Origin: a virus
IMG/VR virus record: IMGVR_UViG_3300022746_000472
Span: 1-23,217 of that record
DNA: 23,217 nucleotides
Reading direction: 5' to 3' (one strand)
Under the pieces are notes generated by a model. It saw nothing but the letters and a program-made list of their open reading frames with translations, did not search any database and had not been told where the DNA came from. Both the position numbers and the translations under genes were made by a program. This document shows, one piece after another, positions 6,869-23,217 of this stretch (position 1 is the first letter of the stretch; each line of letters begins with the position of its first letter).

Positions 6869-7100
6869 CCGACGACTCTCCCTGCGCATTTGCTTCGGCT
6901 TCTGCTTGCGCTTGCGCGTGCATCCAAGCCATCAGCTCGCTCACCTTGAAGCGGACCATCTTGCCGACGCGGTAATGCGGCAGGCCAAGACGCTGGCGAT
7001 CTTTGGGGTTCGTGAGCAAGTACATCGGCAGCTTCAGGCAGAACGCTGCCTCTCGTGCATCGACCAGTCGCTCGGTAAGAATTTGATTAACGTCCGTCAT
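6861..7100 (-). CDS. Excisionase-like helix-turn-helix protein
   Basis: A 79-residue protein of the MerR/excisionase-like HTH type. LVDAREAAFCLKLP forms the first helices and the turn, then YRVGKMVRFKVSELMAWM is the characteristic beta-hairpin and closing helix of HTH_17 proteins. The C-terminus is an Ala/Gln/Glu-rich helix. I chose the ATG at 7100 (GGAG eight bases upstream). The gene overlaps the nuclease gene before it by 14 bases and the primase gene after it by 8 bases. Proteins of this kind just before a P4-type primase are common in prophages and may act as excisionase, replication accessory or regulator. Which applies here is not shown by the sequence. Confidence 0.8.
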   Translation of the reverse strand: MTDVNQILTERLVDAREAAFCLKLPMYLLTNPKDRQRLGLPHYRVGKMVRFKVSELMAWMHAQAQAEAEANAQGESSDA

Positions 7101-9767: not shown

Positions 9768-10516
9768 CACGCCACCTCACGCAGTTCTTGAGCGACGCTC
9801 GGATTCCAGAGGATCTGGTAACCACTGTGGCCATTGCGCGAGTACGGCATCGCTTCTGCCCATGCCTCACCCGGTTCGGTCAGCTCCCACTCATCACGCT
9901 CGTTGCGCACCTGCAGACCCAGGTTGGCCAGGCGCAGGTTGGTGGTCTTGGCCGAGAGGCCGACCAGATTTCCCAGTTGCGTGGCATTGAGAGAGCAGAT
10001 CGGCTCGTTGGCTGCGGGCAGCGCACGGCGCAATGTCTCGATGGCCAGGCCGGTGTTTTCATGAATGCAGGTCAGCGTGGCCGCCATGGCGATGCCCACC
10101 TTGACGCCAGGCACCTTGGCCACAGCTTCCCCAATCAGGAGCAGCGAAGTGACGCGGTCCTGGGTAGGTGCAGGCAACGCGGCAATGGCGGACACGGCAT
10201 AGGAGCCTGTCTTGCGGATGGCAGGCAACACCTCGTGGGTGACCCAACGCTTGAAGCGTTTGGCTTCGGCCTTACGGCTGCCGAGCACCAAGGCATACAG
10301 CCCGGGCTCGTTCACCGTGGTCATTTCTTGGGTTCCACCAGGGGTGTGAATTGAATTCACCCCCTTTTCGTCGTCGTCCAGACGCTCGAGCGCCTTGCGA
10401 TCAAGGCTGATAGTCGACAGCACGTCAGCTGCCACGAACCATGGTTCGCCTTGTGCGTCGGTGACCACACGGACCTGGCTGCCCTCAAAATCAAATGGGA
10501 CAAGTTGCTGTTTCAT
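9767..10516 (-). CDS. BRO family antirepressor
   Basis: A 249-residue protein. The N-terminal 110 residues are a BRO-N domain: VPFDFEGSQVRVVTDAQGEP, WFVAADVLSTI, then VNEPGLYALVLGSRKAEAKR and FKRWVTHEVLPAIRKTGSYA, all hallmark blocks. The C-terminal part has an HTH-like stretch (ATQLGNLVGLSAKTTNLRLA) and a YQILWNPS ending, as in phage antirepressor C-terminal domains. Such proteins bind DNA or repressors and favour lytic development. The ribosome-binding site is GGAGGT just upstream of the ATG. It follows an unknown gene by two bases and overlaps the Sak4-like gene, so it is in the early operon. The target repressor is not identified. Confidence 0.9.
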   Translation of the reverse strand: MKQQLVPFDFEGSQVRVVTDAQGEPWFVAADVLSTISLDRKALERLDDDEKGVNSIHTPGGTQEMTTVNEPGLYALVLGSRKAEAKRFKRWVTHEVLPAIRKTGSYAVSAIAALPAPTQDRVTSLLLIGEAVAKVPGVKVGIAMAATLTCIHENTGLAIETLRRALPAANEPICSLNATQLGNLVGLSAKTTNLRLANLGLQVRNERDEWELTEPGEAWAEAMPYSRNGHSGYQILWNPSVAQELREVA

Positions 10517-11011: not shown

Positions 11012-11275
11012 TCAGGCCGTCACACGCTCGGACGTCGAAACGTGCAGAGCGTTTTTCTCAAAATCCAAAATCATCTCGAGCGCATAGCTCACGCGCTTGG
11101 ACAATTTCAGATACTTGGGACCACGACCTTCGCAGCGCCAGCGCTGAAGTGTTTTGGGGCTGATGCCCCAGCGCTGGGCCAGTTCGTTCTCGTTGAGCAC
11201 CCGGCGATCTCCGGGTGACAGGGTGTTGATCGCTTCTTGAGTCGATCGGGTAAGTGAGGTTGCCGTTGCTGGCAT
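11012..11275 (-). CDS. Helix-turn-helix protein (AlpA/MerR-like), first gene of early operon
   Basis: An 87-residue DNA-binding protein. The core NENELAQRWGISPKTLQRWR is a clear helix-turn-helix, followed by EGRGPKYLKLSKRVSYALEM, the wing seen in HTH_17/AlpA-like proteins. The ribosome-binding site AAAGGAG lies six bases upstream of the ATG. It is the first gene of the long leftward early operon and faces the OLD-family gene across a 205-base control region that holds TGGCGAAC repeats. It may regulate that region or act as a replication or excision accessory. The sequence does not tell which. Confidence 0.82.
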   Translation of the reverse strand: MPATATSLTRSTQEAINTLSPGDRRVLNENELAQRWGISPKTLQRWRCEGRGPKYLKLSKRVSYALEMILDFEKNALHVSTSERVTA

Positions 11276-11326
11276 GGATTACTCCTTTGACGTTGTTGAG
11301 GAACAGGTGTCATTGGAGATTTCGGG

Positions 11327-11381
11327 TGGCGAACATACGAGGGACCGATTGGCGAACCACGCGGAAACTTCTGGTTCGCCA
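11327..11381. promoter_or_regulatory. Operator-like cluster: three TGGCGAAC elements, two as a perfect dyad
   Basis: TGGCGAAC occurs at 11327-11334. TGGCGAACCA is at 11350-11359, and its exact reverse complement TGGTTCGCCA is at 11372-11381, leaving a 12-base centre. The two direct copies start 23 bases apart, about two helical turns. The cluster lies between the divergent early operon and the OLD gene, and an extended -10-like element follows directly, so a repressor site is likely. The binding protein is unknown. Confidence 0.5.
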
Positions 11382-11382
11382 G

Positions 11383-11391
11383 TGCCATACT
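11383..11391 (+). promoter_or_regulatory. Possible extended -10 element for the OLD-family gene
   Basis: TGC-CATACT fits an extended -10 (TGn plus a hexamer with four of six matches to TATAAT). It starts two bases after the operator dyad. No good -35 is seen at 17 bases, which extended -10 promoters can tolerate. The distance to the start codon is about 90 bases. Confidence 0.28.
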
Positions 11392-11422
11392 GCAAAATGC
11401 ATACTGGGCACTCGAGCGATAT

Positions 11423-11437
11423 CGAATCAGCGATTCG
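11423..11437. promoter_or_regulatory. Dyad CGAATC-AGC-GATTCG upstream of the OLD-family gene
   Basis: A perfect 6+6 bp inverted repeat with a 3-base centre, 44 bases before the OLD start codon. It differs from the TGGCGAAC elements, so it may be a site for a second regulator or a small hairpin in the leader of the OLD mRNA. Confidence 0.3.
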
Positions 11438-11480
11438 TGCCTAACAAAAAAGTGAATCTGCGCTAAGCGAGGAATACCAA

Positions 11481-13199
11481 ATGCCGCTCAAATTTGTTTC
11501 TGCCGTCAACCATAGCGACGAGACAGTCACCTTCGGATCTATGACCGTGCTCGTTGGACCGAACAACAGCGGCAAATCTCAAACTTTGCGGGACCTTCGA
11601 GACTTTGCATTAGGAGTACCAGAGAGCGCCCTCACTCTTTTCAAGAGCATCGACGTAACGATGCCATCAAAGGCAGACTTTCAAAAGCACTTCCATGTCT
11701 TGCCGTCAAAGGACTCTCCGACGAACGAGAACATCTTCGGCATAGGCGAAAGTCTCGTCAAAATTCACAACATGAGCGGTCATCTCGGCTGGTCAAATTC
11801 GCTGATCGAAGGCCCCAGCCAGCAACAGCGCCAGTCGCTAGGAAGGTATCTGATAAGTCATCTCCATGCGGGCACACGATTTGAACTGACCGCTCCACAA
11901 GAGGCCTACGATCTTGAGACAGAGGGTCCTTCACACGCGTTGCAAGAGTTCTTCCGCAGACGCCTTGAGGTGCAACCACTTGTACGACAAGCATTCACGG
12001 AGGCTTTCGGACGTGATATCGCGCTTGATTGGACGGCCATGAAGCGCTGGTACTTCAAAGTCGGCAACGCATTTGGCGATCTTTCTGATTCTTTGGATGA
12101 ACTGAAAAAACAGCTTAGTGTTGGCCGGTTGCTTAAAGAACAAGGTGACGGCTACCAGTCTTTTACAGGGATCGTCATTGCGGCGATTGCCTTTCCAGAT
12201 CGTCCTCTCCTGTTAGATGAACCTGAGGCATTTCTTCATCCCAAGCAGGCCCGTGTACTAGGCCGATTGTTAGGGCGACTGAGCATTGTTCGTTCCGCTC
12301 AGATTATTGTTTCTACACACAGTTCGGCGTTCATGTGGGGCGTTGTAAGCGAAAACGACAATGCAAACATCTTGCGGCTAAATCGCAAGGCCGATACGAC
12401 ACGCTACACCCAAGTGCCAGCTTCAACGGTAACAGCCCTTACGCACACCCCGCTACTCTCAAGTCAGCCCATCCTCGACTCGCTCTTCCATCAAGGCGTG
12501 GTTGTCTGCGAAGGTGATCCCGACCGAGCGATTTATCAATTTGTTGCACACCGGGTGCTTGCTAGCAAGGGAGGGGAAGATCTGCTTTTCATCCATACGA
12601 ACGGTAAAGGTGCTGCGGATAAACCTGTCGAGTTGCTGAAAGGCGCTGGTGCTCCGGTGGCCGCCATTGTTGACATCGACATCCTCAACTCGAGTTCCCC
12701 TTTAGACAAAATTGTCAAAGCGTTGACCGGCGTAGAGATTCAGACAGATCTTGAGGACCGACGTGCACAGATTGGAAAATGGGTGCTCGAAATGCCCGAG
12801 GACCAGTTTCTGAAAAAACTGCTTGATGGCGTCAACACATGGATCACATCTCCCCATAGTGATGCCCGATCTTCCCGCAAGCGGCTCGAAAGCATACTGA
12901 AGGGGACTACATCCAAGTGGGAAGTAGTCAAAGAGTCAGGAATTTCTTATTTCACTGATGACCGGCTGATCGCCGTCAAGAGTCTGATTAAAGACCTAGC
13001 CACGATCGGTGTATTCGTTGTTCCCTGTGGAGAGCTCGAGCAATGGATTGATACTGGCGCGAGCAAGGGTAAGGAATGGAATCGGAAAGCACTTGAGCAA
13101 CTTCAGACTGGCGGATGTTCGAAGGAACTCGAAGCTTTCATCCAGCAAGTAATCGACTTTTTATCGGATCCTGCTGCTATCGCTGCAAGAACGGCCTGA
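11481..13199 (+). CDS. OLD-family nuclease (ABC-type ATPase + TOPRIM), candidate phage defence gene
   Basis: A 572-residue protein with an N-terminal ABC/SMC-like ATPase and a C-terminal TOPRIM nuclease. Walker A is GPNNSGKS at 26-33, Walker B LLLDEPEAFLHP with D246/E247, and the H-loop is STHS at 278-281. The TOPRIM acidic residues are E344 in VVCEGDPDRAIYQF and D398/D400 in VDIDIL. This is the OLD architecture, which includes P2 Old and GajA and is tied to exclusion of other phages. No UvrD-like helicase (GajB) follows, so this is a stand-alone OLD, not a Gabija operon. The ribosome-binding site is an AGGA eight bases upstream. It is read opposite to both neighbouring operons and is less GC-rich than they are (31 of 60 in one sampled line against 40 of 60 in the downstream gene), fitting acquired cargo. 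Confidence 0.85.
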   Translation: MPLKFVSAVNHSDETVTFGSMTVLVGPNNSGKSQTLRDLRDFALGVPESALTLFKSIDVTMPSKADFQKHFHVLPSKDSPTNENIFGIGESLVKIHNMSGHLGWSNSLIEGPSQQQRQSLGRYLISHLHAGTRFELTAPQEAYDLETEGPSHALQEFFRRRLEVQPLVRQAFTEAFGRDIALDWTAMKRWYFKVGNAFGDLSDSLDELKKQLSVGRLLKEQGDGYQSFTGIVIAAIAFPDRPLLLDEPEAFLHPKQARVLGRLLGRLSIVRSAQIIVSTHSSAFMWGVVSENDNANILRLNRKADTTRYTQVPASTVTALTHTPLLSSQPILDSLFHQGVVVCEGDPDRAIYQFVAHRVLASKGGEDLLFIHTNGKGAADKPVELLKGAGAPVAAIVDIDILNSSSPLDKIVKALTGVEIQTDLEDRRAQIGKWVLEMPEDQFLKKLLDGVNTWITSPHSDARSSRKRLESILKGTTSKWEVVKESGISYFTDDRLIAVKSLIKDLATIGVFVVPCGELEQWIDTGASKGKEWNRKALEQLQTGGCSKELEAFIQQVIDFLSDPAAIAARTA

Positions 13200-13245
13200 T
13201 GATCTCCTTCAAACCTCGCGAATTCCGACACATCGTTTAAGTAAT

Positions 13246-13716
13246 TCAAATAAAGGCAAGCAGCCTTTTTTGCTCCTCCCAGTCGCGTGGCAGTGGCTCA
13301 TGACGCCCACGGATCGTCTGCAGGTTCAGGTGCCTTGGTTGGGACCCGTCCAGAATGGATTCAATGATGTCGGGTGCCAGATGCGCCATACGCATGACCT
13401 CCGCGACCCAGCCCGGCTCCAGCTTGAACGCACGCGCTAGATCTGTCGCAGTGGCGTACTTGCCCTCGTCGAGCAAGCGCTGCCAGTAAAACGCCTTGCC
13501 CAGCGTTTTGATCATCGGAATGTCCATGCCACCGGACATGACGTTGGCCCCAGTGCCTGGCGGTGGAGTCAGCAGCTTGCGGTTTTGTTTGCGACGGATC
13601 GTCAGCGGGACCACGGTCACACGCTGAGTGCCGTCCATGATTTGCCGCGCCGCTCCCCTCACCTCAATGCGCACATTGCGCAACCTTGGGTTGCCTTGAT
13701 ATGCCTCGCTCGTCAT
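13246..13716 (-). CDS. Recombinase-linked HTH protein
   Basis: A 156-residue protein that follows the large serine recombinase with a 4-base overlap. The C-terminal half has a helix-turn-helix-like segment (about 87-110, ATATDLARAFKLEPGWVAEV) resembling ParB/KorB-type HTH units, then HLAPDIIESILDGSQPRHL. The N-terminal part is basic (IRRKQNRKLL). Genes of this sort are regularly found right after DUF2924-linked recombinases, so it may help choose the direction or site of recombination. That role is inference from position. The ribosome-binding site GAGGTGG is upstream of the ATG at 13716. It converges on the OLD gene with about 45 bases between the stops. Confidence 0.75.
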   Translation of the reverse strand: MTSEAYQGNPRLRNVRIEVRGAARQIMDGTQRVTVVPLTIRRKQNRKLLTPPPGTGANVMSGGMDIPMIKTLGKAFYWQRLLDEGKYATATDLARAFKLEPGWVAEVMRMAHLAPDIIESILDGSQPRHLNLQTIRGRHEPLPRDWEEQKRLLAFI

Positions 13717-15131
13717 GCCACCACCTCATCTGCATACTCTTTGGCCTCTTCCACATATGGGTGCGCCACGATGCTAGGGTCAAGTCCGATCCAACCATCC
13801 TCGCGCCAATGGATGTCCAAACTGCCGTCCTTGAAGTCCACGCGTTCAATGAGCAACTGAGCAATGCGCTGTTGCTCCGCCGGGAACAACTGTTTCCAGA
13901 CATCAGCAATTCGCCGCATCGACACCACCACCTTGTCCTCTTGAAGATCTGCTCCGGCACTGTGCTGCAGGCATGATCGCCACACACCAATCAATGCCTC
14001 CGGCTCCATCAGCGCCAGCTCGATTTCATTCAAAACCGCAGCCTCGACTTCAGCTGCCGGGAGCGCACCGATGCTTTGAGCGCTTCCATCTTGGGTTGCG
14101 CCTGCGCTGCGTCGTTTCTCCAAGTACGGCACGTAATACCGGTACATGCGACCATTTTTTTTCTTGGTGTAGTGATGGATCATGCGCTGCCCATCGGGTG
14201 CAAACAACAAGCCGCCCAACAGCGCTGGGTACTCGTCTTTGCGCTCTCTTGGGCCTTGCTTTCGCTTGTTGACGAACGCTTGCACGCCTTCCCACAACTC
14301 CTGCGAAATGATGCTGGCGTGCTGCGCAGGGAAGTACTCGCCCTTATGGCTGATCTCACCGAGGTAAATGCGATTGCGAAGCAGACAAAAAAGGTACTGC
14401 TGATCGATGGGGCGACCCGCACGGTGCTGTCCAGATTGTGTGATCCAGGACTTGGTGCTGTGACCTTCGATGTCCAACTCACGTACCAAGCGTGCTGCCG
14501 AACCGTGCTCTGCGTACCGACGGAAAATGTCTTGCACCAGACTTGCCTCCCGCTCGTTGACCAGCAGTTTGCGATCAACCACGTCATAGCCCAGCGGGGG
14601 CGTACCACCCATCCACATGCCCTTGGCCTTGCTGGCTGCGATCTTGTCTCGGATGCGTTCGCCCGTGACCTCACGTTCAAACTGTGCGAAGGACAGCAGG
14701 ATGTTGAGCGTCAGCCGCCCCATTGATGTGGTCGTGTTGAATTGTTGGGTGACCGAGACAAACGAGACGTTGTTGCGATCGAAAACCTCAACCAGCTTGG
14801 CAAAGTCGGGCAGGCTGCGCGTGAGGCGATCGATCTTGTAGACCACCACCACATCAATTTTTCTGGCCTCAATGTCTGCCATCAGGCGTTTGAGTCCAGG
14901 ACGATCAATATTGCCGCCGGAGAATCCGCCGTCGTCGTAGGTGTCATCCAGCGCCAGCCAACCTTCATGGCGTTGGCTGCTCACGAATGAGAGACCAGCA
15001 TCGCGTTGTGCTTCCAGGCTGTTGTACTCCTGGTCCAATCCTTCATCGGTCGACTTGCGCGTGTAGATGGCGCATCGCTTTTTGGGAATGAACGAGGGCG
15101 CGCTTGCCACTGAGGTGCGGGAGGTTCTCAT
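13713..15131 (-). CDS. Large serine recombinase
   Basis: A 472-residue serine recombinase. The N-terminal resolvase domain has the catalytic serine in IYTRKSTDEGLDQEYNS (S27), then YDDGGFSGGNIDRPGLKRL and VVVVYKIDRLTRSLPDF, the conserved arginine motifs. A Recombinase domain follows (about 165-270, PPLGYDV and later LLRNRIYLGEISHKGEYFPA). The zinc-ribbon region reads GGLLFAPDGQRMIHHYTKKK and lacks the usual CxxC pair. Such enzymes integrate or excise elements between short att sites. The start at 15131 has AAGGAGG a few bases upstream and overlaps the DUF2924 stop as ATGA; a longer frame to 15188 lies inside DUF2924. Here it sits inside the element, far from the tyrosine recombinase, so which enzyme moves what is unclear. 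Confidence 0.92.
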   Translation of the reverse strand: MRTSRTSVASAPSFIPKKRCAIYTRKSTDEGLDQEYNSLEAQRDAGLSFVSSQRHEGWLALDDTYDDGGFSGGNIDRPGLKRLMADIEARKIDVVVVYKIDRLTRSLPDFAKLVEVFDRNNVSFVSVTQQFNTTTSMGRLTLNILLSFAQFEREVTGERIRDKIAASKAKGMWMGGTPPLGYDVVDRKLLVNEREASLVQDIFRRYAEHGSAARLVRELDIEGHSTKSWITQSGQHRAGRPIDQQYLFCLLRNRIYLGEISHKGEYFPAQHASIISQELWEGVQAFVNKRKQGPRERKDEYPALLGGLLFAPDGQRMIHHYTKKKNGRMYRYYVPYLEKRRSAGATQDGSAQSIGALPAAEVEAAVLNEIELALMEPEALIGVWRSCLQHSAGADLQEDKVVVSMRRIADVWKQLFPAEQQRIAQLLIERVDFKDGSLDIHWREDGWIGLDPSIVAHPYVEEAKEYADEVVA

Positions 15132-15595
15132 GCGACCTCCTTCTTGGTGGACTTCAACCCAAAAAAGGCAGGCCCCGACCATGGGCAACCAGCGATCAAC
15201 CGTGCGATCGCCGACAAGCTCTTGAATCGCTGGCCACGGTACTCAAAGTCGCGCACGCCGCGCACGACCACCTTGTGCTCTTGGTCGTCAAAGTAGCGGC
15301 TGAGCATGGTGCCAGGCAGCAAGCGATCCGCATCACCTTGCAAGCGCTTGGGAAGCACCCCTGTTTCTCCGATTTCCTCCAGCTTCTTACGCGTAGTCGG
15401 CTTGAGAGAGCCGAAGGCCTTTTCCTGAATCTTGTAGGCCAGTCGAGACTCCAGCCAGGTGCGATGGTGGTGCTTTGGTCGTTCATCAAAATGCGCGTCC
15501 CACATGGCCCATATGTTCTGCATGGGCAGGTGTGGAAGCTGCGCGACTTGCGCCGCGATGGATACCGTTTTTGATTGTTGTGCGTGTGTCGTCAT
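15128..15595 (-). CDS. DUF2924 family protein
   Basis: A 155-residue DUF2924 protein. Typical blocks are present: IAAQVAQLPHLPMQNIWAMW near the N-terminus, HRTWLESRLAYKIQEKAFG, LLPGTMLSRYFDDQEHKVVV, and the C-terminal YRGQRFKSLSAIARLIAG. The family nearly always lies directly upstream of a large serine recombinase, as here (4-base ATGA overlap), and is thought to assist it, but the mechanism is not known to me. I chose the ATG at 15595, with AAGGAG seven bases upstream; a TTG two codons earlier is in the same frame. DUF3489, another frequent partner, is at 1059-1511, unusually far away. Confidence 0.9.
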   Translation of the reverse strand: MTTHAQQSKTVSIAAQVAQLPHLPMQNIWAMWDAHFDERPKHHHRTWLESRLAYKIQEKAFGSLKPTTRKKLEEIGETGVLPKRLQGDADRLLPGTMLSRYFDDQEHKVVVRGVRDFEYRGQRFKSLSAIARLIAGCPWSGPAFFGLKSTKKEVA

Positions 15596-15928: not shown

Positions 15929-16753
15929 TCAGGGCTTGCGAATCGCCTCAATGATCGACTGGATCTTCACGGCAAGAATTGCCTTCGACGCAGAATGATG
16001 CTCGATCAAAATTCCGGCGAGCCTGGGTGTGAACTGAGCTGTCGGTGAAAACGATTGTGGATCAATTCGCCCAAGGTCAATCAATACCCCACCGCTAGCT
16101 CCGTGGGGAGTGATTGAAGCCGTTGTCTCACCAGTGAAGGTTTTCGATTTTTTTGCAAACTTCAACAGCAAGTGCGTGTCTTGAGACGCTCCGACGACGT
16201 TGAAGACTTTCTCGTCCGTGTAAGTGGTGGAGCTGTATGCCCATGCCTTTCCATGCACATGAGTTCCGGTGACTGAAATCGGCTTCGGCTTATTGCGTGA
16301 TGCGGGATATCCCAAGGCCATGAAGCATCTTCCATCCAGAGCTACCCTATTTTGGGAGATTTCGTTGGCATCTATGAATGCATCGACGCCGAGACGATTG
16401 GAAAAATCATTGGATACCTCCATGAACGCGAAGTCAAATTTGTCATCGGCTCTGCCTGATGCTGGGGCCTTAGTTATTCCTGCTATTCCCTCGATCGGTT
16501 CCAGCGCATTGCTGCCTGCTACATACAGGGTGGCTTGCTGATTCAAGTCGAGAACGTGAGCGGCAGTTACAAAATACCGTTTGCCATCGACGCGAAGCAA
16601 GAACGCGCTGCCAATTGCTTCAGCAGTTCCTGAAGGCGTAGCCCAGTAGACAGGACGAACTGATGGCAAGAAGCTAGACTGCGCTTGGCTGGTTCTTTCA
16701 TTGATCCAAACTCGTACTGCTTTCTCTTGAGAAATGATCAATCCTGTCACCAT
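15929..16753 (-). CDS. Trypsin-like serine protease in XRE-ImmA operon
   Basis: A 274-residue chymotrypsin-fold serine protease. The catalytic triad is readable: H66 in YFVTAAHVL, D107 in KFDFAFMEV and S220 in PHGASGGVL (GASGG in place of the common GNSGG). GSAFLLRVDGKRYFVTAAHV is the typical start of the fold. There is no signal peptide or transmembrane segment near the N-terminus, so it is likely cytoplasmic, unusual for this fold in bacteria. I chose the ATG at 16753, 22 bases after the ImmA stop. A start at 16879 (316 residues) would overlap immA by about 100 bases, and neither start has a strong ribosome-binding site. It is third in the XRE-ImmA-protease operon. A role as a toxic or signalling effector is inference. 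It appears less GC-rich than the phage core genes. Confidence 0.82.
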   Translation of the reverse strand: MVTGLIISQEKAVRVWINERTSQAQSSFLPSVRPVYWATPSGTAEAIGSAFLLRVDGKRYFVTAAHVLDLNQQATLYVAGSNALEPIEGIAGITKAPASGRADDKFDFAFMEVSNDFSNRLGVDAFIDANEISQNRVALDGRCFMALGYPASRNKPKPISVTGTHVHGKAWAYSSTTYTDEKVFNVVGASQDTHLLLKFAKKSKTFTGETTASITPHGASGGVLIDLGRIDPQSFSPTAQFTPRLAGILIEHHSASKAILAVKIQSIIEAIRKP

Positions 16754-16775
16754 CAGTCTTTCAAGGCCCGCCTCA

Positions 16776-17702
16776 TCAGCGAGCTGGCGATTGTCCGTTA
16801 GAAGTGAACTGATCGAAGCTGTCGAAGCTCTCCTGATCCTGCCAAGAGTTATCCCACCTGCGCGGTTCAGCATCTTCAAGGATCAACAACGTCAGCACGC
16901 GATCTCGCCCGCCGTAGCTGTGTTTGAATTCCTGCAGCTTCATGTAGGGCTGTTCACCGACGCACCACACTGCTGCGGACATATCGATCCCGTTCCACTC
17001 CTGCGCGATGGACTCATCTGCTGCAACGGTATCGCGCAGAGGCTCTGCAGGATCATTCAGCCTTCGAATACGGGTGTTGCTCAGCACAGCACTGCGGCTT
17101 CTCCATTCGTACTTTAGAAAACCGTTGTCCCAGTGCAGCAAGATCGCACGCTTCTCCGTGAACTTGATGAAGCGGATGCACAGGGCCTCGAACGACACGC
17201 CGAATGTTTTGGCCAGGCCACTGAGTAAGTACAGGTCAATGTTCTGACTGGTGATGCGATCACGCAGGACATCGCCAGGCATCAACAGGTTGCTGGCGAA
17301 TTCATCCGCTTCGCGTTCAATGTTGGCTGCAGTGTCTTGGCTGAAATGAACCGCGGCTTTGTCGCAGTTGAAGGTGCGTCGCTTTGACCTGTGCAAAACG
17401 AAGTGGCCCAGTTCGTGAGCGATGGTGAATCGTTGACGCTCAGGACTGGCGTCCGGGTTGTAGAAGATCCCCCACTCGGCAGGATCATTCGGGTTACAAA
17501 CCAACATCCCCTCAACACTACTTACGGTTGATGCCATGGGGGGCTTGATGATTTTGACCCCCTTGCCGTAGGGCGTAGTTGGCAGCCCCTCACGAACCAT
17601 GTCGAGATCGATGTACGCAGCCTTCTCCTCAGCGGCGACACGCATCCAACGCAGGATCATGTTCGCCGCTTTGCTTGGGGTCAGGTCTGCGCTGGCGCTC
17701 AA
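16776..17702 (-). CDS. ImmA/IrrE family metallopeptidase
   Basis: A 308-residue ImmA/IrrE-type zinc protease. The zinc motif HELGH is at 96-100 in FTIAHELGHFVLHR, and the third ligand lies in NIEREADEFASNLLMP (E131). The family cleaves XRE-type repressors, as ImmA does to ImmR and IrrE/PprI to DdrO, to switch on mobile-element or stress genes. The C-terminal half (about 180-308) is an extra region that may sense a signal, with no motif I recognise. The start appears to be a TTG at 17702, overlapping the stop of the XRE gene as TTGA, with GAGGA about ten bases upstream. It is therefore translationally coupled to its probable substrate. The trypsin-like protease gene follows 22 bases after its stop. 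Confidence 0.9.
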   Translation of the reverse strand: MSASADLTPSKAANMILRWMRVAAEEKAAYIDLDMVREGLPTTPYGKGVKIIKPPMASTVSSVEGMLVCNPNDPAEWGIFYNPDASPERQRFTIAHELGHFVLHRSKRRTFNCDKAAVHFSQDTAANIEREADEFASNLLMPGDVLRDRITSQNIDLYLLSGLAKTFGVSFEALCIRFIKFTEKRAILLHWDNGFLKYEWRSRSAVLSNTRIRRLNDPAEPLRDTVAADESIAQEWNGIDMSAAVWCVGEQPYMKLQEFKHSYGGRDRVLTLLILEDAEPRRWDNSWQDQESFDSFDQFTSNGQSPAR

Positions 17703-18046
17703 CGCTTGGGTTCCTCTTGTGCAGTGCCGGGGAACATCAGCTTCATCATGTCTTGAACGCGATTTTTCTCATCATCCGACATGGTGGCGTACTGGCGAAA
17801 GAACGCCACATCTTCAACTGTGGCCTCGGGGACCTGTTCGTTGGTCTCGTTCATGAGGTCTTCCATCGTGACCCCCAGAACCTTGGCTAGCAGATGAACC
17901 CGCTCGGCGGAAGGGCGCTGGCCCTCTTTCATTTCCAGTTCCCAGATGTATGCCTTGGTGCAGCCAACTGCGTCGGCCACTTGCTGCAATGTCAGCTTCT
18001 TGGCCTCCCGCAGACGTCGCAATCGCGCTCCTAAGGTCGATGCCAT
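17699..18046 (-). CDS. XRE family repressor (ImmR-like)
   Basis: A 115-residue regulator. An N-terminal HTH_3 domain covers residues about 6-66, with LRRLREAKKLTLQQVADAVG and CTKAYIWELEMKEGQRPS as the recognition region, followed by LLAKVLGVTMEDL. The C-terminal 50 residues are acidic and helical (EDVAFFRQYATMSDDEKNRV) and may hold the cleavage site for the ImmA-like protease encoded next. The ATG at 18046 has AGGAG eight bases upstream. An extended -10 lies 35-43 bases upstream. It is divergent from the 414-residue gene, and a dyad and direct repeats lie between them, so it probably represses both promoters. That is inference from arrangement. Confidence 0.9.
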   Translation of the reverse strand: MASTLGARLRRLREAKKLTLQQVADAVGCTKAYIWELEMKEGQRPSAERVHLLAKVLGVTMEDLMNETNEQVPEATVEDVAFFRQYATMSDDEKNRVQDMMKLMFPGTAQEEPKR

Positions 18047-18080
18047 GGCACAGCTCCTGTCTGAATCAAAACAGCCAAAA

Positions 18081-18089
18081 AGTATAGCA
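18081..18089 (-). promoter_or_regulatory. Extended -10 promoter element for XRE-ImmA-protease operon
   Basis: On the minus strand TGC-TATACT is an extended -10 with five of six matches to TATAAT, 35 bases before the XRE start codon. The -35 region at 17 bases is poor, as is common for extended -10 promoters. The start codon has a clear ribosome-binding site downstream. Confidence 0.5.
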
Positions 18090-18108
18090 CCAAGATACAC
18101 CATCCACC

Positions 18109-18125
18109 ACCATGTTCTACGTGGT
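18109..18125. promoter_or_regulatory. Candidate XRE operator dyad
   Basis: ACCATGTTCTACGTGGT is a 17-bp imperfect palindrome centred on base 18117: ACCA/TGGT and GT/AC pair, with mismatches only next to the centre and at one flanking position. It directly abuts the -35 of the rightward promoter and lies about 20 bases upstream of the leftward -10. Size and location fit an XRE repressor site controlling both directions. Confidence 0.45.
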
Positions 18126-18154
18126 TTGACAAGCGGAAATAAGCGGGACACAAT
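18126..18154 (+). promoter_or_regulatory. Sigma70-type promoter for the 414-aa gene operon, with direct repeats in the spacer
   Basis: TTGACA (18126-18131) is a perfect -35. A 17-base spacer leads to CACAAT (18149-18154), a four-of-six -10. The spacer contains two AAGCGG copies, at 18131 and 18141, exactly 10 bases apart (one helical turn), which could place a regulator on the promoter face. The start codon at 18264 is about 105 bases further on, leaving a long leader. Confidence 0.5.
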
Positions 18155-18263
18155 TAAGCTGTATCTCGCCACTTTACTTTGACGGGGTATCTGTTTACCA
18201 CCTGTCGGCCAGCGCCAGCATCCCCTGCACGCAGAACACCGACATTTCACAAGGACCAAGATA

Positions 18264-19508
18264 ATGAAAAAAACCTTTGTCGATGTGCTGCTTGAGCTGC
18301 CCGTAGACACCACTTTGCAGAGCTTCCTGGCGACCAACGGGCTGCCTCTGCCGGACGATCTGTCCTGGTCGGATAGCCAAGAGGTCACCCAGACCGTGAT
18401 CGAGGCCATCCGGTCTTGGCCCGACGGAATTGCCCGTGACGAACTCATTGCCAAACTCATGGCAAGCGTTGGACTGGGGGATGCGGCGGGCAAACAGGCG
18501 ATGTTTCAGGTGGCCCAAAAGGACGGTGCCGCATTGATGGGGCTGGTCGCCAGCCAAAGTGACATCCATCGCTCGTTCTGGCTGTACGTGAACCACCCCG
18601 AGCTGTTTGATCTCGCCGGAGATGTGGACTTCTTCGAGCGCCATGGCACCCAAGCGCAACAGAACGATCTGGGCGTCAAACGCAAGCCCAACACCTCCGA
18701 AGCCTCAATGCTCGGCATGCGCCAATCCATCTCGGCGTTCTATCAGCGGGAGCTGCAATGCGGCGACGGCAGCGTGGCATACGTGCTGGAGCGTTCCCCC
18801 GATGTCTATCTGCTGACGGTCCACGTCAAGGATCTGGCAATGCTGCGTCTGGAGTTCGAAGGCTCGAACCTGACCCGTCGCGTCGGCAATCCCAATATTC
18901 ACATGGTGTTGGAGTATTCGGCCAAGACCGGTGTGGCGCGCACGCTAGTCAAGGGAGGGGTCAAGTACCACACAATGCTGCTGGAGGCATTCGCAGAGCA
19001 TCTGCTGGGCACGAAGGTCGATGCACACCGCATCAAGCCACCCACTCTGGACCTGTCTGCGTTGCGGCTGGGTTTTGATGTGCCCCAGGCGCTGACCATC
19101 GATGGGTTCATGGCGGTGCAGGTCAAAACCCTTTCACTGCTCAGCCCCCATGGTGACCTGAAGGTTGAATGCACTGCAACCGCCTCAAGCGACCAGCAAT
19201 GCGTGACCGAACTGATCGCTGAGTCTTTCCCCAACGAGAACCCGCTCAAGCGCAACTGGCAGATCAACTCGGCGCACATCAATCTGTACTACCCACCCGA
19301 GCCCGGCAAGATGCGAGCGAAGGTCATCACCATTGAGGTCACCCGCAAAGGCCGACTGAACCTTCACAAGTTCGACGCCAAGATGCAAGCCCAGCTCGAA
19401 GGCTACTTGGTTTCCCTCGGCATTCTGGGGGCCGACCAAACGCTGAACGCCAATGAGCAGCAGCCCGGTGAAGACGCCTTCCAGTCCGAACCTGCGTACC
19501 AGGAGTAA
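18264..19508 (+). CDS. Hypothetical protein (414 aa), first gene of cassette operon
   Basis: A 414-residue soluble protein I do not recognise. No signal peptide, membrane segment, nucleotide-binding loop or nuclease motif is evident. Residues about 1-125 are helical and end in FWLYVNHPELFDLAGDVDFF. The middle (about 150-235) is beta-rich (VAYVLERSPDVYLLTVHVKD, MLRLEFEGSNLTRRVG). The remainder includes VKYHTMLLEAFAEHLLGTKV and KMRAKVITIEVTRKGRLNLH. The last 30 residues are polar and probably disordered. AAGGA lies eight bases before the ATG. It is followed two bases later by a zinc-ribbon/winged-helix gene, and is divergent from the XRE-ImmA-protease operon. The shared control region suggests it is part of one functional unit, but its activity is unknown. 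Confidence 0.85.
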   Translation: MKKTFVDVLLELPVDTTLQSFLATNGLPLPDDLSWSDSQEVTQTVIEAIRSWPDGIARDELIAKLMASVGLGDAAGKQAMFQVAQKDGAALMGLVASQSDIHRSFWLYVNHPELFDLAGDVDFFERHGTQAQQNDLGVKRKPNTSEASMLGMRQSISAFYQRELQCGDGSVAYVLERSPDVYLLTVHVKDLAMLRLEFEGSNLTRRVGNPNIHMVLEYSAKTGVARTLVKGGVKYHTMLLEAFAEHLLGTKVDAHRIKPPTLDLSALRLGFDVPQALTIDGFMAVQVKTLSLLSPHGDLKVECTATASSDQQCVTELIAESFPNENPLKRNWQINSAHINLYYPPEPGKMRAKVITIEVTRKGRLNLHKFDAKMQAQLEGYLVSLGILGADQTLNANEQQPGEDAFQSEPAYQE

Positions 19509-21656: not shown

Positions 21657-21732
21657 TGGTGGCCTGGGGCGGAATCGAACCACCGACACGCGGATTTTCA
21701 ATCCGCTGCTCTACCAACTGAGCTACCGGGCC
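21657..21732 (-). tRNA. tRNA-Phe (GAA)
   Basis: The minus strand gives a full 76-base cloverleaf with encoded CCA. The D arm contains GCTCAGTTGGTAGAGC. The anticodon stem GCGGA/TCCGC encloses the loop TTGAAAA (anticodon GAA, Phe), and the T arm is GGTGG-TTCGATT-CCGCC. The acceptor stem is GGCCCGG against CCAGGCC, which leaves one C-A mismatch at pair 5-68; a G in place of that A would give a perfect stem. The gene has its own extended -10 promoter upstream and a terminator 8 bases downstream. tRNA genes are classic integration targets, and a tyrosine recombinase gene begins about 195 bases upstream of its 5' end. Confidence 0.95.
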
Positions 21733-21744
21733 ATAAGAGTGCTG

Positions 21745-21753
21745 ATTGTAGCA
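21745..21753 (-). promoter_or_regulatory. Extended -10 promoter element of tRNA-Phe
   Basis: On the minus strand TGC-TACAAT is an extended -10 with five of six matches to TATAAT. It ends 12 bases before the tRNA 5' end, suitable for a short leader removed by RNase P. The -35 region is weak. Confidence 0.55.
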
Positions 21754-21927
21754 GGGATTTTGCCGGAAAGTTCCGAGCTACCCGTCCAGTGTGGCTCCTA
21801 CCTTAAAAAATGCTGCAGACCCTGCCCGCCACCACGCTCAACCACAGGACAGAAGCCCGACAGATTTTTGGGTTGGTTGCCCAGTACGCAGGCGTGAAAT
21901 TACGCTGCTGTTTTTCTAGCAACTTGC

Positions 21928-23217
21928 GTGAAAAGCACCCAACTCGCCTACCCTACAGCCCAGCAGCTTGTGCAGCAGGGCATCCTCCCTCCACCCCTTC
22001 CAAAGCTGACGAAACTGGCCCTCGCAGAGCAGCAACGCAGTGAGAAAGTACACCACTTGCGTGATGGCGCAGTGGTTCTGTATAAGCGCAAAGAGAGCAG
22101 TGTTTGGCAGGTGCGCTTCCGTTTGTTTGAGCGCAAGGACTGGCTGAGCTTTTCTACCAAGCAACGTGACTTGGGTTTTGCCAAGCGTGTTGCAGGGGAC
22201 ATGTATGACCGAGCCCGTTTTAAGGAAGAACTGGGCATACCGCAGAGCGTCAAACGTTTCAGCAATGCAGCGGATGCTTGCATGAAGCAGTTGGACCGTG
22301 AGATTGAACAGGGTCTCAAGCCACGCACCAACCTGGACTACAAGCGGGTCATTCGTCTGTACCTCATCCCGTTCTTTGGCAAGTACAACCTGACCAGCAT
22401 TGACGGCACATTGGTCCGGGAGTTTGAACTGTGGCGCAACGAGAAGATTGGCCGTATGCCTATGGCCAGCACACTGATGACCCATGCGTCTGCGTATAAC
22501 CGGGTCATTGAAACTGCCATTGAGAACGGGTGGCTCAGCAAACACCAGAACACGCCCACATTGAGCCGCCGTGGTGAAAAGACCAAAGCTCGTCCGGGCT
22601 TCACTGTTGAGGAAGTCGATCAGCTGTTGGCGTTCATGCCTGATTGGGTGGCCGCTGGTGGACACAGAAACACTGGCCGCCAAATCAAGATGCTCTTGCG
22701 TGATTACGTGGAGATCTTGCTGGCTACTGGGATGCGGGCTGGACGCGAGAGTCTCAACATGCTCTGGCAGCACTTGGAGTGGCACACCGTCAATGAAGTC
22801 CGCTACCTGCGTATCTGGGTCAGTGGCAAAACAGGTGGTCGCTGGCTTATTGCCAAGCATCGCTCATGGGCTGCATTTGAACGACTGGCACTACGTCAAG
22901 CTGCTGTTGGAATGACATTGGATGAAGCCATCAAGGCCAAGTTGCCTCACAAGGTCTTTGTCTATGAAGATGGCAGTCAGCCCTATGGACTGCAAGGCAC
23001 GTTCAGTCGCCTGTTGCAAGCAGCGGGGCTCAGCAAAGACAAGAGCAGTGGGCAGCAACGCACCATGTATTCATTGCGGCACACATACGCCACGATGGAG
23101 TTGATGGCTGGCACTGAAATTCACACCCTCGCCCGCCAGATGGGAACGTCTGTACTGATGCTGGAGAAGCACTATTCCAAGTTGACTGCCACGATGGCCG
23201 CTGAGCAGCTGGCATAA
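21928..23217 (+). CDS. Tyrosine recombinase / phage integrase
   Basis: A 429-residue tyrosine recombinase that ends at the last base of the window. The N-terminal region includes an arm-type/SAM-like core-binding domain (about 110-205). The catalytic domain has R270 in LLATGMRAGRES, a lysine in VSGKTGGRW (K301), R384-H385 in YSLRHTYATMELMAG, and the nucleophile Y416 in LEKHYSKLT. The first box-II His is Tyr (Y381), and the usual LGH motif reads QMGTS, both normal for this subgroup. The start is a GTG at 21928 without a strong ribosome-binding site; a stop lies in frame shortly upstream. It reads away from the tRNA-Phe gene. It could be the integrase of the prophage on the left or of another element to the right. 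Confidence 0.92.
   Translation: MKSTQLAYPTAQQLVQQGILPPPLPKLTKLALAEQQRSEKVHHLRDGAVVLYKRKESSVWQVRFRLFERKDWLSFSTKQRDLGFAKRVAGDMYDRARFKEELGIPQSVKRFSNAADACMKQLDREIEQGLKPRTNLDYKRVIRLYLIPFFGKYNLTSIDGTLVREFELWRNEKIGRMPMASTLMTHASAYNRVIETAIENGWLSKHQNTPTLSRRGEKTKARPGFTVEEVDQLLAFMPDWVAAGGHRNTGRQIKMLLRDYVEILLATGMRAGRESLNMLWQHLEWHTVNEVRYLRIWVSGKTGGRWLIAKHRSWAAFERLALRQAAVGMTLDEAIKAKLPHKVFVYEDGSQPYGLQGTFSRLLQAAGLSKDKSSGQQRTMYSLRHTYATMELMAGTEIHTLARQMGTSVLMLEKHYSKLTATMAAEQLA

Follow-up and report, generated by a model that had tools for sequence, protein, structure and literature searches.

Why does a phage record carry a gene for a single-protein OLD nuclease, and whom does that gene serve? We asked this of a virus record in IMG/VR, whose 23,217 bases make up the whole window analyzed here; the gene lies at positions 11,481 to 13,199 on the plus strand. 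A first-pass annotation had read it as a stand-alone OLD-family nuclease borne by a prophage as defense cargo, possibly for superinfection exclusion. OLD defense genes are already known; what is new here is a putative exclusion-type OLD gene as prophage cargo, from a clade near P2 Old.

The gene encodes a stand-alone OLD-family protein

The reading frame starts with ATG, is free of internal stops and encodes a protein of 572 amino acids (P0001), an OLD-family member with an N-terminal ABC ATPase and a C-terminal OLD-type TOPRIM domain. Pfam returned the AAA_21/AAA_15 pair (PF13304/PF13175; 7.6e-15 for AAA_21 and 1.1e-14 for AAA_15) and OLD-like_TOPRIM (PF20469, 4e-7, residues 335-400, positions 12,483 to 12,680), all above the curated cut-offs, and the top PADLOC model was Old (1.4e-25), which also matches 31 of the 31 clade members of alignment A2. 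The ATPase and TOPRIM motifs, first annotated as intact, are indeed so: across 31 aligned sequences there is no variation at G26, N28, N29, G31, K32, and S33 of Walker A (GPNNSGKS, residues 26-33, positions 11,556 to 11,579), in the D246-E249 part of the Walker B region (residues 243-249, positions 12,207 to 12,227; D246, E247, and E249), at H280, at the TOPRIM residues E344, D348, D398, and D400, and at G517, E518, and E520 of a third acidic motif (GELE, residues 517-520, positions 13,029 to 13,040). This third motif sits after a predicted strand (511-514) and aligns with GDIE of P2 Old. Thermus scotoductus (Ts) OLD (6P74, Class 1) is the best match in the PDB by sequence (4.2e-6 when the sequence was searched alone, 2.4e-14 when a 31-sequence profile was used), and its metal A/B acidic residues E377/D381/D431/D433, as numbered in the structural report (PMC7049728), align with E344/D348/D398/D400 of the window protein. 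The two proteins differ in that Ts OLD has, as its second metal-B pair, S-x-E (S478, E480; S/T-x-E as a pattern) where the window OLD has E-x-E, and about 45 residues from D433 to S478 (PMC7049728) where the window OLD has 117. K529 and K531 are candidate counterparts of R487, the basic residue (R/K) close to that pair in Ts OLD.

An AlphaFold2 model of P0001 built on the 31-sequence alignment reached a mean pLDDT of 86.8 and a pTM of 0.84. Foldseek against the PDB also placed Ts OLD (6p74) first (E 2.4e-9), followed by entries that include an SMC head, retron Eco8, and GajA; VIA-align of the full-length model put SMC/Rad50 heads first, and a viral structure library put giant-virus ATP-dependent endonucleases first. 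When the C-terminal half was modeled alone (pLDDT 87.7), it matched Xcc OLD (Z 11.1, 3.6 Å, 154 aligned residues), Bp OLD (Z 10.4, 3.1 Å, 151), Ts OLD (Z 9.7, 3.6 Å, 150), and GajA (Z 8.6, 4.8 Å, 194) as well as retron TOPRIMs; among the matches listed, the top 18 entries were all OLD, GajA, or retron TOPRIM (Z 11.1 to 6.4), and the first unrelated one came at Z 6.0. The nuclease half is therefore an OLD TOPRIM, and the fold makes no choice between the OLD classes.

The OLD gene runs on the plus strand against minus-strand phage genes. To its left lie, on the minus strand, genes for a primase, a Cas4-like exonuclease, a Sak4-like protein, Ant, a RuvC-like protein, and a DNA methyltransferase, and the nearest is an HTH (HTH_17) gene (11,012 to 11,275, minus strand). 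Downstream, all convergent with it, come a small gene of the recombinase operon lacking a Pfam match (13,246 to 13,716, minus strand), a large serine recombinase/integrase (13,713 to 15,188, minus strand; phrog_95 integrase, 6e-104), and a gene that we take to be DUF2924-like. The inversion and the lower GC content of the gene had both been noted before and both stand (GC 0.511 vs 0.568 in the remainder of the window); its GC3 of 0.527 is the second lowest among the 25 window genes, after a protease-like gene (15,929 to 16,879, 0.521) of a second variable site described below.

As first annotated, no GajB-like helicase follows the gene. Gabija was rejected since no UvrD/PcrA/Rep-like helicase lies downstream, and a retron effector of Class 3, whose genes adjoin a reverse transcriptase and an ncRNA, was rejected since no reverse transcriptase was found among the window neighbors or in the 32 viral relatives. 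In the records of these relatives, UvrD_C and RVT_1 were each found in 0 of 32 cases, and the controls gave signal. GajA and other Class 2 proteins, such as Xcc and Bp OLD, share the two-domain plan and the OLD TOPRIM fold with the window OLD, but a UvrD-like helicase is absent beside the latter and in its 32 viral relatives. The neighbors, together with the Pfam, PADLOC, and fold matches, make it a stand-alone OLD-family protein; as a single gene with neither helicase nor reverse transcriptase partner, it agrees with Class 1 on this point.

The gene is a cassette at a general cargo site

By blastn, the OLD cassette (11,393 to 13,223, plus strand) is an insert in the phage backbone and comprises the gene, a leader of about 88 bp, and a trailer of about 24 bp. 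Its limits come from two comparisons: two Paraburkholderia chromosomes (L002, L003), whose surroundings at these loci are unrelated, match from 11,393 to 13,213 or 13,223 at 77% identity, and DNA homology to related phages ends at 11,401 or before (11,377 to 11,401 in most rows) and restarts at 13,243 or later. At a Variovorax locus, the match begins at 11,481 (79%). That Variovorax OLD gene (L001) is enclosed by 68-nt inverted repeats that are 84% complementary (6879-6946 and 10,045-10,112 of the locus).

Abutting the leader is a conserved phage intergenic flank (11,276 to 11,392; 81-97% identity in most related phages), which lies upstream of the HTH gene and contains three TGGCGAAC/GTTCGCCA copies within 55 bp (11,327 to 11,381, starting at 11,327, 11,350, and 11,374). 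In the whole window, TGGCGAAC occurs five times vs 1.32 expected, a count reached in 3 of 100 shuffles. By eye, the corresponding site of one relative (L065) contains a similar repeat in a larger number of copies. In many relatives a terminator-like hairpin, also judged by eye, stands just outside the conserved flank; it is degenerate in the window. A promoter scan found no promoter-like site; a terminator scan gave a single terminator-like site, which lies on the minus strand and falls below the mean of shuffled sequences.

What occupies this position in other phages was followed through IMG/VR loci related to either flanking module (the best 80 of 145 in one scan and the best 80 of 176 in the other), with the HTH gene and the small recombinase-operon gene as anchors. 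Both border genes were present in 108 loci; after identical intervals were merged and L081 was dropped (anchors on opposite strands), 75 distinct intervals were left. Among these best relatives, 52 of the 75 intervals are empty (157-228 bp) and 23 are loaded (585-3478 bp), and OLD is found in one, which is the window itself. Elsewhere the site holds AbiEii (L089), AbiL (L088), HipA (L107, with L057 alike by sequence), a candidate defense protein with FRG domain/PDC-S15 (L010), an HNH_2 restriction-like protein (L132), HNH (L085), DUF6731 (L043, L050 alike), a C92 peptidase (L119), a KatG-like peroxidase with a ferritin-like protein (L013, 3742-6509; L014 alike), MerT with a heavy-metal-associated HMA protein (L012, 7290-7952; L011 alike), MerT (L056, 2719-3090), a hydrolase with GGDEF (L054), or ORFs lacking a Pfam match (L083, 2204-3881; L076, 3829-4329; L016, 6869-7336; L053, 4651-5061); the loaded intervals of L061 and L065 lack a convincing ORF. 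PADLOC matched 8 of 10 tested cargo proteins (E ≤ 1e-3), including AbiEii (9e-104), PDC-S15 (2.5e-98), and AbiLi (7e-77), vs 3 of 10 backbone proteins, one of them, the methyltransferase, strongly. The loads of the 22 other intervals and the PADLOC counts therefore describe a general lysogenic-cargo site that is rich in defense-like genes and not reserved for defense.

The window gene is thus cargo, a mobile cassette with a short leader of its own at a site that is loaded otherwise in relatives, and the prophage-borne cargo of the first-pass annotation is borne out by its single occurrence in the 75 intervals, its cassette ends, and its sporadic presence. The same data weigh on whether the gene could be native to the early module of this phage, as an OLD-like gene associated with replication or recombination. 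Its position, with the replication/recombination module on one side and the integrase operon on the other, would suit such a role, but that single occurrence, the opposite strand, the differing composition, and the separate cassette ends all speak the other way, and we regard it as very improbable; a core replication gene was rejected on the occurrence count.

Please bear in mind that location alone is no proof of defense, because KatG/ferritin, MerT/HMA, and GGDEF/hydrolase genes share the site. Class 5 OLD proteins (Cran1) form clade U11 and are vertically inherited in Sulfolobales. Some OLD proteins are non-defensive, Cran1 acting in the archaeal cell cycle (PMC12796447), and the peroxidase and mercury-transport loads would likewise agree with a cargo that raises host fitness, i.e., a nuclease for DNA repair, stress, or cell-cycle tasks in place of phage exclusion. 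We consider such a role unlikely, as the company at the site includes Abi, toxin-antitoxin, and restriction endonuclease genes, and OLD itself is sporadic in distribution and tied to prophages and to the P2-type old position.

The phage backbone and a second variable site

The window record contains none of phrog_2, TerL_nuclease, or Phage_portal, three packaging families found in 3, 2, and 2, respectively, of 20 related phage records; two near relatives of the backbone, G799 and G800, carry TerL and portal genes. A search for a near phage record gave none, the matches being limited to the tRNA region, and no att-marking repeats were found across the window. Within positions 21,657 to 23,217 a tRNA-Phe gene (minus strand) is followed by a second, presumably integrase-like gene (21,928 to 23,217, plus strand).

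Farther right, an M78 (IrrE/ImmA-like) peptidase gene (16,776 to 18,493, minus strand) matches PADLOC capP (1.7e-49), and an HTH gene comes next. The two are probably the phage's own repressor-protease switch, because homologues occur in many related phage loci; a CapH/CapP defense pair specific to this prophage was rejected, since most related loci of sufficient length also have homologues. Between the M78 peptidase and the presumed DUF2924-like gene lies the second variable site, occupied in the window by the protease-like gene (minus strand), whose Trypsin_2 match (5.9e-6) is just below the Pfam cut-off; relatives have 41 distinct intervals there (306-4402 bp) with varied ORFs, and by eye a similar peroxidase and ferritin-like pair is seen in that of L055. 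The two lowest GC3 values of the window thus belong to the OLD gene and to the protease-like gene of this site.

Relatives are scattered over chromosomes, phages, and plasmids

Orthologues with 82% identity were found in Variovorax sp. 679, P. fynbosensis, and P. fungorum. In a same-order sample of 399 genomes, the close matches were limited to the already-known source genome and one at 32%, while 62 further genomes matched weakly, mainly in the ATPase portion; in a phylum sample, 3 of 398 genomes had a match at E ≤ 1e-20. Neither tblastn of phage records nor a pattern search of viral contigs gave relatives of P0001, and a search of IMG/VR with alignment A1 found 32 loci encoding relatives (55% to 24% identity), two of which, L262 and L263, fall outside the clade. 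The phage context of these loci partly reflects the choice of collection, because they were drawn from a viral one. The GC content of the OLD gene is more than 2 points below that of its flanks in 28 of the 32 loci and above it in two. A P2-type portal gene adjoins OLD in at least three clade members (L232, L241, and L256), an integrase gene does so in L238 and L265, and L254 resembles L241 by the first residues of the neighboring gene; no tRNAs were found next to OLD in the six relatives checked.

Plasmids carry relatives too, in eight records at 23-32% identity. On the Paracoccus plasmid pTAV3, the OLD relative (L201, 3141-4819) is split into two ORFs. The plasmid occurrences, and the reported killing of recBC cells by P2 Old (PMC10568477), are compatible with a plasmid- or prophage-maintenance (addiction) or anti-plasmid gene that would kill or disable cells losing a host function or taking up foreign DNA, with no specific anti-phage value; an antitoxin-like partner was not recognized beside OLD, however, and we hold this role to be quite improbable.

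Phylogeny separates the window clade from P2 Old and from helicase-linked OLDs

A quick tree of 68 rows set apart a window clade of 36 rows (SH-aLRT 100) from the helicase-linked OLDs, a label read by eye from the Walker motif of the next ORF, and did not place P2 Old beside this clade. In a careful tree of 37 rows, the window clade received 100/100, the helicase-linked rows formed another group together with YbjD (100/98), and P2 Old with L167 and L169 was the best sister of the window clade at a weak 88/78. Truncated, split, or near-duplicate sequences (L200, L201, L243, L245, L254, and L255) were left out. A tree made to unite the window clade with the helicase-linked group is not rejected (p-AU 0.218, at a cost of 4.2 log units); one that joins the window, L001, L003, and L232 with the P2 rows is rejected (p-AU 1.6e-51). 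The protein falls outside the helicase-linked rows in both trees, and P2 Old is its best sister in the careful one. The first-pass reading is supported with two corrections: given the rejected joining, the window OLD is not a P2 Old orthologue, and the slot that it occupies is not for defense alone. A published OLD tree (PMC12796447) contains eleven uncharacterized clades, with Class 2 nested within Class 1.

Lengths and spacers were also compared. The 572 residues of the window OLD stand against 522-797 in the helicase-linked rows, Class 1 proteins being said to be about 50 residues shorter than Class 2 on average. In an L-INS-i alignment, the residues between DxD and motif 3 number 117 in the window OLD, 77-124 in the clade, and 85 in P2 Old; Insert 3 is absent from the Ts OLD TOPRIM, and spacer length does not settle the class, because P2 Old, the class archetype, has these 85 residues. 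An insert unique to the window clade, suggested by the Ts and Bp residue numbers, was dropped for the same reason. The 85-residue spacer, together with GDIE under GELE, agrees with the placement of P2 Old as sister.

P2 Old (NP_046798.1) is further alike in being a single-gene ATPase-TOPRIM protein and an accessory gene of a prophage, and in its portal adjacency, shared by some relatives of the window OLD. It differs in that phmmer links the two at only 1.2e-6, in having Glu in place of D348, and in belonging to another phage group and another cargo site. Escherichia coli YbjD (OldB) is likewise a single-gene OLD with an anti-phage effect when induced, as reported (PMC13261556), but it clusters with the helicase-linked rows. 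IbfA of the HEC-04 type is a single-protein ATPase-TOPRIM anti-phage factor (PMC12111858), but the candidate R64 IbfA, whose gene identity is inferred, reaches 34 bits against the clade profile, through ATPase motifs only.

A probable role in excluding competing phages

Taken together, these analyses point to a lysogenic-cargo gene for a single-protein OLD nuclease that probably excludes competing phages, by superinfection exclusion or abortive infection; it probably helps the host cell to shut out competing viruses. P2 old, which lies between gpA and gpQ in a known P2 defense hotspot (PMC9122126), excludes lambda (PMC10568477), and according to a 2023 review no other Class 1 protein had by then been demonstrated to block a phage (PMC10568477). 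From kinship and location, we infer a similar action here, with an ATPase-gated nuclease, an infection cue, and an end to phage production.

In this scheme, OLD would be transcribed in the lysogen from its own leader, against the lytic operon, and the protein would dimerize through an element inserted in the ATPase, as Ts OLD does. The ATPase may hold it quiet until a sign of infection appears, possibly unprotected DNA ends or a loss of RecBCD function of the kind to which P2 Old responds. The latter reportedly detects that RecBC is inhibited and cleaves a host tRNA (cited in PMC13261556; also PMC13096335); for Gabija, the proposal is that it acts on DNA without RecBCD (PMC12407980). The TOPRIM domain would then cut nucleic acid by the two-metal chemistry described for Class 1 and Class 2 OLDs (PMC7049728, PMC6755086), with E344, D398, and D400 plus D348 and E518/E520 as the predicted residues, and this nuclease action would stop phage production, possibly by cleaving tRNA, the activity reported of P2 Old. 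The phage carries an exonuclease and an annealing protein of its own, so that a cue of the RecBCD type would oblige the phage to get past its own guard upon induction, which it could do if OLD were expressed in lysogeny alone. It is also possible, although we hold this with considerable doubt, that the 36-row clade (GExE, single gene, common in prophages) constitutes a separate exclusion system whose trigger and target differ from those of P2 Old and Gabija, with phages and plasmids as its carriers across a range that extends from Gram-negative bacteria to Streptomyces and Lactococcus; in this phage, it would be wired to lysogeny via the abutting TGGCGAAC region.

The two cargo sites mapped here, whose loads include Abi, toxin-antitoxin, and candidate defense genes as well as genes of no known family, are a practical hunting ground for new ones, and the cargo ORFs lacking a Pfam match (L083, L076, L016, and L053) are candidates for new functions. 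Within the OLD family, least is understood about the single-gene proteins; the window gene and its clade offer a compact, prophage-linked set in which to ask whether exclusion of the P2 Old kind is a general phage strategy.
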